Under the pieces are notes generated by a model. That model did no database searches. It had not been told where the DNA came from and saw nothing but the letters and a program-made list of their open reading frames with translations. DNA of 35,417 bases from an uncultured Clostridia bacterium (GTDB lineage Bacteria; Bacillota; Clostridia; TANB77; CAG-465): NCBI GenBank assembly GCA_944383035.1, contig CALWOE010000012.1:1-35417 (forward strand). Reading direction: 5' to 3'. Every line of letters begins with the position of its first letter. Position 1 is the first letter of the stretch. The position numbers were made by a program, and so were the translations under genes. This document shows positions 6,832 through 14,001 of the stretch, in pieces.

Positions 6832-8499
6832 ATGGCAAGTAAACAAGAAAAAGTTGGTACAGTAAAAATGTCAGCATTTGATCTTAAAAATACAAAACCT
6901 GATTTTATGTCTTATGCTGATTTTCAAAATAATCCAGAACTTATAAAAGATTTAGAAAAGCAAGATAGGTTCTTAAATGTTCTTGAAAAATATTATAATA
7001 ATACAAAACCAAAAGATGATAAAAGTTTTCAAAGCTTTTTGTGGGATAATATTGAAAATAAAGTTAATTTAAATGAAAAACTAAATAAAAAATTAAATCA
7101 AGATGAAATTGATGATATAAAATCATCAACTATGGAAAATCATGATGATTCAACATCAAAATATCAGCAAGAAGTTCAAGAAAATGAAATGGAAAAAGAA
7201 GAAATACAAAATCTTCAAAAATCTGGTCTTGCAGTAGATAAAAATATAGAAAAAGAAGCTAAAGAAAAGCTTGAAGAAAAAAGTAACGATAAAGATAATA
7301 ATCAAAAGCAAGTTGAGGAATCAAAAGACTTAAAGAAAGTATTTTTAGAAGCTATGTATACTAATACATTAGAAGAATATTATCACTTAAAAAAAGATCT
7401 AATGGTTGGTTTTAATGGTCAAGTTAAAACTGGAGAATTATCTCCTGGTAGAAAAATGAACACAAAGCTTATAGCTTATGAAAAATATTTAAAAAAGATA
7501 AATACCATGTATAAAGCATATTCAGGGATGGATATATTTAAAGATAGTGAAGAGGTAAATAAAAAATTATCAGAACTTACAGGATATGATGAAAAAAATG
7601 AGAAAGCTTTAAATCTTAAAACAGAAAAAAATATTGGTAAGGTGTCACAATTAAGTCAAGAAATAGATAGTATATCAGAAGAAATTGTTGATCTTTCTGA
7701 AAGATCAGATAGCATGGATACTGAAGAATTTAAAAACAGAATGGATAGTTTACAATCAAAACTTGTAAATAAACAGTTGGAAATGGATGATTTAGATCCA
7801 AGTATGGAAAGACTTATTGCTGGAAATAATGAACAAGAAAGATATGAAGATATGCAACAAAGAGAAATTGGTTCTGTTTACATGAAAAGACAACAAAGAG
7901 CAATTGATTCAAAAGATAAGGTAAGTGTAAGGGCAAATGATTTACGAAATGAAAGAATAGATGATAAATTAAATAAAGTACAAAAAGATCCATTAGAAAA
8001 TCAAAAAGAAGTTGTAAAGAGGCTTATGGATGAAGCTGAAGAATATAGAAAAGATGGAAACTATATTAAAGCTATGGAAGTAATGGAAAGTATAGAAAAA
8101 ATTACTACCTCACCAAATGTTGTAGAAACTCAAAATATAAATCAAAAAGCTTATGAACCAAATACTTTAACAAGTAATGATAAACAAAAAGTAAGTGAAA
8201 TGAAACAGGAAATTGTAGATGACTACCATGAACAAAAATCTCAAAATGAAAAAGTAAATGAATCACAAAATTATAAAACAAGTATGACTGAAAGTATTGT
8301 AAAGGGGGCAGCTACAGGGATGGCTATAGGAACTATGGCAAATTTGGGAAATAAATTTGGAAACAGTTTAAAATCTCAAGTTTATTCAGAAGAAGAAGCA
8401 ATAAAAAACACAGCAGAAAGAACAGAAAGAGAAGCAAAAGAAAGAGTAAATGTTATAGATAAAAATTTAGAACAAAATAACAATTTATGGACAAGATAA
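6832..8499 (+). CDS. Unknown 555-aa highly charged, coiled-coil-rich protein
   Basis: I do not recognise this family. The protein begins MASKQEKVGTVKMSAFDLKN and is dominated by Lys, Glu, Asp, Asn and Gln with long stretches likely to form helices and coiled coils, for example around residues 85-165 and 270-330. There is no signal peptide. The only apolar segment is near residues 490-505 (VKGAATGMAIGTMANLG), a Gly/Ala-rich stretch of the glycine-zipper kind, followed by another charged helix to the C-terminus. A weak internal similarity to a tetratricopeptide helix pair (EEYRKDGNYIKAMEVMESIEKI) lies near residues 400-420. The start has a GAGGT SD and its own promoter. It is a single gene between xth and fba; base composition matches neighbours. 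Confidence 0.8.
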   Translation: MASKQEKVGTVKMSAFDLKNTKPDFMSYADFQNNPELIKDLEKQDRFLNVLEKYYNNTKPKDDKSFQSFLWDNIENKVNLNEKLNKKLNQDEIDDIKSSTMENHDDSTSKYQQEVQENEMEKEEIQNLQKSGLAVDKNIEKEAKEKLEEKSNDKDNNQKQVEESKDLKKVFLEAMYTNTLEEYYHLKKDLMVGFNGQVKTGELSPGRKMNTKLIAYEKYLKKINTMYKAYSGMDIFKDSEEVNKKLSELTGYDEKNEKALNLKTEKNIGKVSQLSQEIDSISEEIVDLSERSDSMDTEEFKNRMDSLQSKLVNKQLEMDDLDPSMERLIAGNNEQERYEDMQQREIGSVYMKRQQRAIDSKDKVSVRANDLRNERIDDKLNKVQKDPLENQKEVVKRLMDEAEEYRKDGNYIKAMEVMESIEKITTSPNVVETQNINQKAYEPNTLTSNDKQKVSEMKQEIVDDYHEQKSQNEKVNESQNYKTSMTESIVKGAATGMAIGTMANLGNKFGNSLKSQVYSEEEAIKNTAERTEREAKERVNVIDKNLEQNNNLWTR

Positions 8500-9971: not shown

Positions 9972-10006
9972 AAAAGTCAGCAAATAATTTGTTGACTTTT
10001 TATTTT
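9972..10006 (+). terminator. Rho-independent terminator after the fba unit
   Basis: A 13-bp stem with one G-U pair (arms 9972-9984 and 9988-10000), a TAA loop and a following T-rich run. Confidence 0.85.
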
Positions 10007-10059: not shown

Positions 10060-10088
10060 TTGAATAAAAATAGAAAATATAGTATAAT
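10060..10088 (+). promoter_or_regulatory. SigA-type promoter for pnp
   Basis: TTGAAT (10060-10065), a 17-base spacer and TATAAT (10083-10088). Predicted initiation near 10095 places the leader hairpin right at the transcript's 5' end. The stretch 10007-10059 shows nothing else. Confidence 0.75.
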
Positions 10089-10100
10089 ACTTTAAGTGTA

Positions 10101-10175
10101 AATAAAAGGCGATATGTAGTAATAATTTGTGAGTATATTATATATACTTAGAAATTATTATTACAGCCTTTTATT
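10101..10175 (+). promoter_or_regulatory. Long hairpin in the pnp 5' leader
   Basis: Three stacked helices fold the leader into one arm: 10101-10110 with 10166-10175 (10 bp), 10116-10128 with 10152-10164 (13 bp, one G-U) and 10132-10138 with 10142-10148 (7 bp), closed by a three-base loop. The SD (AAAGGAGGA) follows 12 bases after the base of the stem. In E. coli the pnp leader is a long hairpin cut by RNase III and PNPase for autoregulation; a similar role here is inference. Confidence 0.6.
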
Positions 10176-10197
10176 GAAAAAATAAAGGAGGATTTTT

Positions 10198-12306
10198 ATG
10201 TATAAAAAATTTGAAACTACATTTGCAGGTAAAAAACTTGTAGTAGAAACAGGGAAGATGGCTACTCTTGCAAATGGATCATGTCTTGTAAGATATGGAG
10301 AGACTTGCGTTTTGGTAAATGCTACAATGTCAAAAGAGCCAAAAGAAGGAATTGATTTTCTACCTTTATCAGTAGATTATGAAGAAAGATTATATTCAGT
10401 TGGAAAAATTCCTGGTGGATATATAAAAAGAGAAGGAAAACCATCAACAAAAGCAATTTTGGTTTCTCGTGTTATAGATAGACCACTAAGACCATTATTT
10501 CCAAAAGATTATAGAAATGACACAGTAATTTCTGCATTAGTACTAGCTGTTGAACCAGATGTATTACCAGAAATACCAGCTTCAATTGGTGCATCTATTG
10601 CTCTTAATATATCAGATATACCTTTTGATGTTTTAGTTGGAACAACAAAAGTTGGTATAGTTGATGGTGAGATAGTTTTAAATCCAGATTTAAAACAAAG
10701 AGAAAAATCAACACTTGATTTAACTGTTTCAGCTACACCAGATAAAATTTGTATGATTGAAGCAGGAGCAAAAGAAGTTGAAGATAAAAAAATGTTAGAA
10801 GCTATAAAAGTTGCACATAAAGAGATAAAAAAACTTTGTAAGTTTATAGCTACAATAAAAAAAGAAGTTGGAAAGAAAAAGAAAGAATATAAATCTTTTG
10901 CCGTACCTCAAGATATGGTAGATTTTGTAGACTTGCTTGCAACAGATAAATTAAAAGAAGCTGTTCAAGTAAAAGAAAAGTGGGTAAGAGATGAAAATGT
11001 AGATAAAGTAAATGAATTTGTAAAAGAAGAATATATCAAAAAATTTGGAGAAGATGTATATAACGAAAATAAATCAATGTTAAATGAAGCTTTGTATAAA
11101 GCTGAGAAAAAAGCTGTACGTGAACTTGTAATAAATGAAAATAAAAGAGTTGATTCAAGGGCAAATGATGAGATAAGAGAATTATCAGCAGAAGTTGGTC
11201 TTTTTGAAAGAGTACATGGAAGTGCATTATTTACTCGTGGACTTACTCAAGTATTATCAATGGTAACTTTAGGTAGTATATCTGATGAACAAGAAATAGA
11301 TGGATTAGATGAAGAAAGTTCAAAAAGGTATATGCACCATTATAATATGCCATCATATACAGTAGGAGAGGCAAGACCATCACGTGGTCCTGGTAGACGT
11401 GAAATCGGACATGGAGCTTTAGCTGAACGTGCTTTAGAGCCAGTTATACCATCAATGGAAGAATTCCCATATACAATTAGAGTTGTATCAGAAGTACTAT
11501 CTTCAAATGGTTCAACATCACAAGGTAGTGTTTGTGGCTCAACACTTGCTTTAATGGATGCAGGTGTTCCAATTAAAGCACCAGTTGCTGGAATATCTAC
11601 TGGTTTATTTACAAAAAATGGCGATACTAAAGATTATGTTATGGTTACAGATATACAAGGTATTGAGGATTTCTTTGGTGATATGGATTTTAAAGTTGCT
11701 GGTACAAAAAAAGGAATAACAGCAATACAAGTAGATATAAAAATTGATGGTTTATCATACGAAATAATAAAGGAAGCTTTTGCAAGAACTAAAAAAGCAA
11801 GAGAATATATATTAGATGAAGTAATGTTGAAAGCAATTGATAAACCAAGAGCTAATTTATCTAAATATGCACCAAAAATAGAAACAATAAAAATAAATCC
11901 AGACAAAATACGTGAAGTAATAGGTACTGGTGGTAAAACTATAAATAAAATAATTGAGGAAACAGGTGTAAAAATAGACATTGAAGATGATGGTACTGTT
12001 TTTGTATCTGGTGTAGATGCTAAGAAATTAGATAGAGCAATACAAATAATAGAAGGACTTACAAGAGATGTAGAATTAAATGCAGTATATTTAGGTAAAG
12101 TAACTAAAATATTACAATTTGGAGCTTTGGTTGAAATATTACCTGGTAAAGAAGGACTTTTGCATATATCTAAAATTTCAAATAAAAGAGTGGATAAAGT
12201 AGAAGATGTATTAAAAGTTGGAGATGATATTTTAGTTAAAGTAATTGAAATTAATAAAGATGAAAATAAATTTAGTTTAACAGCAAAAGACCTTATGGAA
12301 GTTTAG
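10198..12306 (+). CDS. pnp: Polyribonucleotide nucleotidyltransferase (PNPase)
   Basis: 702-aa PNPase, the phosphorolytic 3'-5' exoribonuclease of mRNA decay. Domain order is normal: first RNase PH domain (about 10-145), all-helical linker (to about 310), second RNase PH domain with the catalytic region SVCGSTLALMDAGVP (about 440-455) and TDIQGIEDFFGDMDFKVAGT, KH domain with the G-x-x-G loop IGTGGKTINKI (about 575-585), and S1 domain starting at YLGKVTKILQFGALVEI (about 630) with GLLHISKI. The SD is AAAGGAGGA. The usual upstream rpsO is absent; instead there is a dedicated promoter and a long leader hairpin. The P-loop/Asp23 gene follows after ten bases. Confidence 0.97.
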   Translation: MYKKFETTFAGKKLVVETGKMATLANGSCLVRYGETCVLVNATMSKEPKEGIDFLPLSVDYEERLYSVGKIPGGYIKREGKPSTKAILVSRVIDRPLRPLFPKDYRNDTVISALVLAVEPDVLPEIPASIGASIALNISDIPFDVLVGTTKVGIVDGEIVLNPDLKQREKSTLDLTVSATPDKICMIEAGAKEVEDKKMLEAIKVAHKEIKKLCKFIATIKKEVGKKKKEYKSFAVPQDMVDFVDLLATDKLKEAVQVKEKWVRDENVDKVNEFVKEEYIKKFGEDVYNENKSMLNEALYKAEKKAVRELVINENKRVDSRANDEIRELSAEVGLFERVHGSALFTRGLTQVLSMVTLGSISDEQEIDGLDEESSKRYMHHYNMPSYTVGEARPSRGPGRREIGHGALAERALEPVIPSMEEFPYTIRVVSEVLSSNGSTSQGSVCGSTLALMDAGVPIKAPVAGISTGLFTKNGDTKDYVMVTDIQGIEDFFGDMDFKVAGTKKGITAIQVDIKIDGLSYEIIKEAFARTKKAREYILDEVMLKAIDKPRANLSKYAPKIETIKINPDKIREVIGTGGKTINKIIEETGVKIDIEDDGTVFVSGVDAKKLDRAIQIIEGLTRDVELNAVYLGKVTKILQFGALVEILPGKEGLLHISKISNKRVDKVEDVLKVGDDILVKVIEINKDENKFSLTAKDLMEV

Positions 12307-13132: not shown

Positions 13133-13149
13133 TTTAAACGTCTTTTTTG

Positions 13150-13178
13150 TTGAAAAATGTAGTTAAATGTAGTAAAAT
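13150..13178 (+). promoter_or_regulatory. SigA-type promoter for the anchored protein and glyS
   Basis: TTGAAA (13150-13155), a 17-base spacer and TAAAAT (13173-13178), ahead of the GAGGGTGA SD of the next gene. Confidence 0.65.
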
Positions 13179-13197
13179 ATGTGCGAGGGTGATTAAA

Positions 13198-14001
13198 ATG
13201 GAAACGATGAGAATAAATGAACCAAAGAAAAATTCAAAATGGCCTGTGGTATTGCTATTTTTGTTTTTAGCTGTAGGTGGAGTTATAATATATCTTGCAA
13301 TATCTAATGAGCAAGAGCCAGTTGTAATTGGAAGTAAAGAACCAGAAATGAATAAACTTGTAAATATAGAAGATAATACTGAAGAGAAATTAAATGAAGC
13401 ACAAAATGTTGGTGTAGAAGTTAAAAATGTAAGATTTCAAGATAAATCAAATTCTAAATGGAAAAGTAATATGACAATTCCGCAAGTATACATTAATGGG
13501 GAAGATTTAGAAGAATTAAATAAAGAAATAGAAAATAAATATACAAATGTATTTAATTCATCAAAAGAAAACATGAAAAATGTAGAAAGTAATTATACAT
13601 ATACAGTAACATATAACTCATATGAAAATATGGTTGGTACAAAAAAGATATTGTCTCTTACAATACATAGTAGAACAGTAGATGATGAAAAGCAAACATC
13701 TATATCTGATACTATAACTACATATAATATAAATGTAGTTTCTAAAGAAAAATTAACTTTAGGATCTATAGCAACAGATGTACTTGGTAAAGATTATAAG
13801 TCAATAATAAGAAGTAATCTTTTAAATTATGTTGTAAGTGAAAATATGATGAACGAAAGTGATTTTACATATGCTACAACTGGACTTGAAGAATTTTACA
13901 TAAAAGATTCAAATTTACATATTGTATTTAATGCAGGTGAACTTGTAGACAAAAAATATAATGTTGTTGATGTAACAATTGAAAATACAGCAAATAAATA
14001 A
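13198..14001 (+). CDS. Single-pass membrane protein with an extracytoplasmic domain, possibly PdaC/RsiV-like
   Basis: 267 aa from the ATG at 13198, which has GAGGGTGA eight bases upstream; an earlier in-frame TTG at 13147 falls within the promoter. Residues about 14-37 form one transmembrane helix (WPVVLLFLFLAVGGVIIYLAI) after a basic N-terminus, so the rest should face outward. The outer part has a weak resemblance to the DUF4163/DUF3298 domains of PdaC and RsiV: paired segments MTIPQVYINGEDLEELNKEI (with the conserved Ile-Pro) and YTVTYNSYENMVGTKKILSLTI. It ends with a beta-rich stretch FYIKDSNLHIVFNAGELV. No catalytic residues are obvious. glyS follows after 25 bases. Confidence 0.7.
   Translation: METMRINEPKKNSKWPVVLLFLFLAVGGVIIYLAISNEQEPVVIGSKEPEMNKLVNIEDNTEEKLNEAQNVGVEVKNVRFQDKSNSKWKSNMTIPQVYINGEDLEELNKEIENKYTNVFNSSKENMKNVESNYTYTVTYNSYENMVGTKKILSLTIHSRTVDDEKQTSISDTITTYNINVVSKEKLTLGSIATDVLGKDYKSIIRSNLLNYVVSENMMNESDFTYATTGLEEFYIKDSNLHIVFNAGELVDKKYNVVDVTIENTANK

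Follow-up and report, generated by a model that had tools for sequence, protein, structure and literature searches.

A conserved long hairpin with a G·G mismatch in the 5′ leader of clostridial pnp

The stretch of DNA analysed here (the window) is one whole contig of 35,417 nucleotides (C12) from the 1.28-Mb draft genome of an uncultured Clostridia bacterium, the near relatives of which, where their records carry names, are uncultured gut Clostridia. On the forward strand we find in order fba, a TSCPD gene and a DUF1653 gene (Pfam names), an intrinsic terminator, a promoter, a 75-nt hairpin, a Shine-Dalgarno sequence and pnp. The last encodes a polynucleotide phosphorylase (PNPase) of 702 amino acids (10198-12306, forward strand) with RNase_PH, PNPase, KH and S1 domains (Pfam). 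The terminator (9972-10000, forward strand), lying 3′ of the first three genes, has a 13-bp stem and a T-rich tail, and is the sole one returned by the terminator scan, against 0.0 in shuffled sequences. It stands between the upstream genes and pnp, and thus separates pnp from the fba genes. Two other proteins encoded in the window (555 amino acids, 6832-8499, and 284 amino acids, 13147-14001) have no Pfam match at an E value of 1e-5.

The promoter TTGAAT-17-TATAAT that was originally predicted for pnp is present at 10060-10088 of the forward strand, with the −35 box at 10060-10065 and the −10 box at 10083-10088, and agrees with the consensus at 10 of 12 positions. Promoter-like sites as a class show no clear excess (8 found versus 5.2), but the top-scoring promoter has its 3′ end 21-28 nt 5′ of the GUAG of the stem core in 26 of 27 related leaders; in the sole exception, leader L016, the promoter script chose a different site. 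Judged from the −10 box, transcription would start within 10095-10100, placing the base of the hairpin about 6 nt downstream of the start. The Shine-Dalgarno sequence AGGAGG (10186-10191, forward strand) lies outside the hairpin and is unpaired in the fold. Location of pnp behind rpsO is usual for leaders of the E. coli type, but is not obligatory. In this assembly rpsO lies on another contig (C8), in agreement with the expectation that pnp is not behind it. The genome encodes RNase III (TIGR02191 over its cut-off, on contig C15 of the source genome, G000), with a second, weak match below the cut-off.

In the computed fold the hairpin occupies 10101-10175 and contains 33 bp in three stacked helices of 10, 14 and 9 bp, with a single internal 1 × 1 G·G mismatch. 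The length of 75 nt and the three helices are therefore as originally predicted, while the proposed division into 10, 13 and 7 bp, 30 bp in all, is not. The basal helix of 10 bp is formed by 10101-10110 and 10166-10175, and two-sided changes occur in all nine of its aligned pairs. Above it, a 4-nt bulge in the 5′ arm (10111-10114) precedes the core helix of 14 bp (10115-10128 with 10152-10165), which is conserved in sequence. The mismatch juxtaposes G10129 of the 5′ arm and G10151 of the 3′ arm, and above it lies the apical helix of 9 bp (10130-10138 with 10142-10150), closed by a 3-nt loop (10139-10141). The predicted energy is −33.5 kcal/mol compared with a mean of −12.2 for shuffled sequences (z = −7.7), and none of 200 shuffles is as good. 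The same is true of the surrounding region 10060-10260 (−46.1 versus −23.7, z = −6.8, 0 of 200). Folding the reverse strand gives −22.7 for the hairpin. Hence pnp has its own long leader hairpin, as the original prediction held, a trait shared with leaders of the E. coli type.

Covariation in related Clostridia had been set beforehand as the test on which the prediction should stand or fall, and the pairing proves to be conserved. We aligned 26 leaders, 25 from the genus of the window and one (L035) from its family; by coordinates, L032 and G074 are identical places, as are L035 and G038. Pairing holds in 93.4% of the cells of the alignment, and 16 of the 32 pairs exhibit two-sided compensatory changes. 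The covariation score of 0.336 compares with 0.144 in shuffles and is reached by none of 500, and pairing falls from 93% to 40-54% when the partner strand is slid by 1-3 columns. We conclude that the pairing of the pnp leader is kept by selection. Both ends of the stem covary (above the mismatch, six of eight aligned pairs change on both sides), and its middle is unchanging, with 12 of the 32 pairs invariant, most of them in the core helix. The G·G mismatch is kept in 25 of 26 rows, and is replaced by a U/A pair in L032. Two G·U pairs, which can pair only in RNA of the forward strand, are conserved in 25 and 23 of the 26 rows. Together with the weaker fold of the reverse strand, this indicates that it is the RNA of the forward strand that matters.

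A covariance model built from this alignment was run with the search program's stricter filters on 143 genomes of the order. It matched 36 genomes, in 33 of them strongly (best E values from 3.6e-17 to 9.1e-8), and every one of the 33 strong matches lies directly 5′ of pnp. Twenty-six of these are the members of the model itself and seven are new. Matches to the reverse strand at the same places reflect the palindrome. The remaining three matches (genomes G024, G108 and G134, E values from 0.0068 to 1.5e-4) are weak, lie elsewhere than at pnp, and resemble hairpins arising by chance. The other 107 of the 143 genomes of the order gave no match to the model, including three of the window's own family (G067, G072 and G076). 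A 15-nt core occurs in one copy per genome in 27 of 28 congeners, always at the hairpin; the reversed pattern, used as a control, is present once in all. The element is private to pnp in the congeners searched.

We examined the mismatch in three sets of pnp leaders. The near set comprises 107 distinct leaders, after removal of L095 (no upstream sequence) and the duplicates L031 and L034; it was picked by similarity of PNPase, and its members are not phylogenetically independent. The class sample covers 98 genomes, 97 of which have pnp, and provided 90 leaders, reduced to 89 since L357 is too short. The one genome with no pnp match at the threshold used, G322, is listed as 100% complete. The phylum sample provided 125 leaders of 129, with G000, G181 (contig end), and G209 and G259 (partial pnp) excluded. 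Start codons in the class and phylum samples were chosen by script, and 2 of the 125 fall on no start codon. Five genomes of the class sample belong to the near set as well, and two, G203 and G262, to the phylum set; L291 and L227 are one and the same leader, shared by the class and phylum sets. The relatives and the class sample combine to 195 non-redundant leaders, with L312 and L091, which are identical, counted once.

On folding, a hairpin of at least 20 bp is found in 164 of the 195 leaders, and a 1 × 1 G·G mismatch in 128 of these 164 long hairpins, whereas the phylum sample has it in 14 of 71 such hairpins. Of the 44 families represented in the class sample, 27 have the mismatch. As a share of all 1 × 1 mismatches in the folds, G·G accounts for 140 of 369 in the related leaders and 19 of 74 in the phylum sample, but the fold model may itself favour G·G, and we therefore place weight on counts made per leader and from pairing only. 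Strict G·G hairpins, defined by pairing at 14 or more of 15 flanking positions, are present in 67 of the 107 near leaders versus 6 of 535 shuffles, and those with all 15 paired in 32 of the 107 versus none in shuffles. The next mismatch in the near leaders by the same pairing-only count is U·U (22 of 107). G·G is again foremost in the class sample (18 of 89), followed by A·C (9). No excess of G·G is seen in the phylum sample at a pairing score of at least 14, where there are 3 G·G in 125 leaders versus 12 U·U, and a general cross-phylum G·G rule is accordingly rejected.

The pairs that flank the G·G vary but stay paired. U-A, A-U, C-G and G-C all occur below it, and U-A, A-U, G-C and C-G above; this survey is anchored on folded structures, which biases native pairing upward. 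For the uninterrupted helix below the mismatch the commonest length is 7 bp (44 of 128), the 5′ side reading GUAGCUU, GUAGAUU or UUUAGCA; the helix is longer in the genus of the window, reaching 14 bp in the window itself. The median stem has 22-24 bp below the G·G and 10-11 bp above, a length that is ample for RNase III. A second recurrent stem, UUAGCA-G-UUA / UAA-G-UGCUAA, also with a G·G, is observed in families f90, f99, f100, f102, f120 and f121 of the class sample (for example in L310, L328 and L342).

Among pnp leaders fetched from other groups, the stems of Listeria and Amphritea do carry a G·G. That of Proteus has an A·C near the place of the E. coli mismatch, those of Actinobacteria have other mismatches, and in the folds of the leaders of Neisseria, Acinetobacter, Legionella and Bacteroides we found no comparable G·G. 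In rRNA processing stems, likewise substrates of RNase III (16S and 23S from each of two Clostridia and from E. coli, with the flanks alone folded), a G·G is present in one of six. That one, in the 23S flanks of G289 (L368), has its G·G in UUGAA/UUGAG, like the pnp leader of the same genome.

The feedback of PNPase through an RNase III-cut leader in E. coli is a textbook case. In our fold the E. coli rpsO-pnp leader resembles that of the window in having a long stem 5′ of pnp and a 1 × 1 G·G with U-A pairs and a U·G wobble on its flanks; it differs in that the strands of the motif are swapped, a second G·G lies three positions up, pnp is behind rpsO and there is no sequence match. Cutting of this leader by RNase III is described in the passages on pnp in PMC5371410 and PMC8708148, the former of which gives a read-ratio peak for RNase III at 3311286. 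Counted from the pnp start this falls at −118 (NC_000913.3 coordinates, version.3 being assumed for the paper), and corresponds in our fold to the 5′-arm G of the leader's own G·G, although such a peak marks lost coverage and is not a mapped cut.

The original prediction implied that control by RNase III and PNPase would be new in a Gram-positive lineage, yet it has already been reported there. The passage on pnp in PMC8708148 states repression or processing of pnp by RNase III for Streptomyces coelicolor and Streptococcus pyogenes, and likewise for Borrelia burgdorferi and Campylobacter jejuni. According to the relevant section of PMC6431027 the S. pyogenes pnp 5′ UTR is processed by RNase III, with predicted cuts leading to fragments of 22 and 30 nt, and feedback is proposed; this Gram-positive leader stem-loop is likened to ours by that description and not by sequence. 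Staggered cuts have been mapped in a paired region of the pnp leader of Propionibacterium acnes and likened to E. coli in the corresponding part of PMC3848588. Here too the likeness to the leader of the window is one of description and not of sequence, and the organism is actinobacterial.

The Actino-pnp RNA (RF01688), described in a section of PMC2864571, resembles the hairpin of the window in that it is conserved in sequence, lies in pnp 5′ regions and carries mismatches in mid-stem, but its sequence is different and so are its mismatches (A·G, U·U, C·A or C·U). An Rfam scan matched it to four actinobacterial leaders and not to that of Collinsella (L121). The Actino-pnp hairpins of Streptomyces, Nonomuraea, Tsukamurella and Arthrobacter (L119, L120, L122 and L132) have near-constant mid-stem mismatches, and form a parallel case. 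No Rfam family, RF01688 included, reached its gathering threshold in the window or in 12 clostridial pnp loci; in the latter a few sub-threshold matches are found away from the leaders. The scan also placed antisense RNAs over or beside the pnp leader, rliD in Listeria (L116:605-940) and SraG in E. coli (L111:2728-2899), both scoring best on the strand opposite pnp. Full-text literature searches, and term searches of PMC6429828 and PMC8040213 (their supplements lying outside the search), returned no description of a clostridial pnp motif. Thus the RNase III/PNPase circuit of pnp is already known in several phyla, and for the clostridial G·G motif we found no description. The original prediction offered either independent evolution or retention of autoregulation. 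Given that the G·G of E. coli is alike with its strands swapped, that most of the other phyla fetched show none and that the phylum sample shows no excess, we make no choice between the two.

By its anatomy the hairpin of the window is very likely a member of the known RNase III/PNPase leader circuit. The reading we favour, with a probability of about two in three, is that it is a cis-acting element of the pnp leader, a substrate of RNase III by means of which PNPase keeps its own production in check. The hairpin would form at the extreme 5′ end of the pnp mRNA, and while uncut this 5′-terminal stem would protect the message. RNase III would cut the long stem near the conserved G·G, leaving a short 5′ fragment still base-paired with the message. 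When abundant, PNPase would degrade the paired fragment, opening the 5′ end of the mRNA to decay and so limiting its own synthesis. We infer the transcript start, the cutting by RNase III, its position and the control by PNPase from the structure and from the better-known leaders. Against the proposal stand the absence of G·G from L032 and from 36 of the 164 long hairpins, and its presence in just 14 of 71 long hairpins of the phylum sample, where pairing-only scores likewise give no excess. So does the single G·G among the six rRNA processing stems.

RNase III cuts generic double-stranded RNA. Such cutting needs no invariant stem sequence, and another binder may therefore be involved. The stem might be a sequence-specific site for a protein, either PNPase through its KH and S1 domains or some other, which represses translation or stability without RNase III. 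The conservation of sequence beyond pairing would be explained, as would a G·G whose neighbouring pairs differ from family to family; the Shine-Dalgarno sequence being outside the stem, direct occlusion is not evident, and the precedent elsewhere, in the passages cited above, is cutting of pnp leaders by RNase III. We regard such a site as unlikely. It is also improbable that the stem does nothing but shield the mRNA from 5′-end-dependent decay of the RppH/RNase J type, with neither cut nor feedback. The closeness of the hairpin to the probable start and the promoter-to-stem spacing kept within the genus fit a stabiliser, but simple shielding would not call for an invariant core or for a G·G in a stem whose ends covary, and in the congeners searched the element occurs solely at pnp. 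That the inverted repeat is a DNA operator for a transcription factor, as its proximity to the promoter might suggest, is very improbable in view of the conserved G·U pairs, the covarying pairs and a distance between the two mismatch G nucleotides that varies by species from 20 to 29 nt. Transcription attenuation or termination within the leader would account for a strong stem 5′ of the gene, but no T run follows the stem and the scan gave 9972-10000 alone, making this hardly credible.

Within the favoured reading of an RNase III-cut leader, the G·G may have a role of its own. We suggest tentatively that it serves bacterial RNase III (or PNPase) as a specificity signal that would fix the place at which the pnp leader is cut. 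The mismatch has freely covarying neighbours and lies roughly one helical turn from the loop. L032, the long hairpins without G·G and the rRNA stems argue against such a signal, and the rRNA stems speak likewise, though weakly, against the idea that every substrate of RNase III carries a G·G. The double-stranded RNA-binding domains of the RNase III-family enzymes DROSHA (mGHG) and DICER (GYM, mWCU) read mismatch motifs, and a single mismatch near the cut helps the choice of site, according to the portion of PMC10899750 that deals with them. It is conceivable, but doubtful, that the G·G of Clostridia, and in strand-swapped form that of E. coli at the site of RNase III action, is a bacterial counterpart of these motifs. 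The comparison is an analogy only, for these enzymes are eukaryotic and the same portion of that paper describes mGHG as depleted of G-G.

The leaders assembled here form a large clostridial set of candidates that share a common, simple and mutable feature, the G·G mismatch, together with a core that is frozen in one genus. The clostridial motif is a candidate for curation as an RNA family beside Actino-pnp. With this set a long-standing question becomes testable, namely what besides double-strandedness directs cutting by bacterial RNase III.
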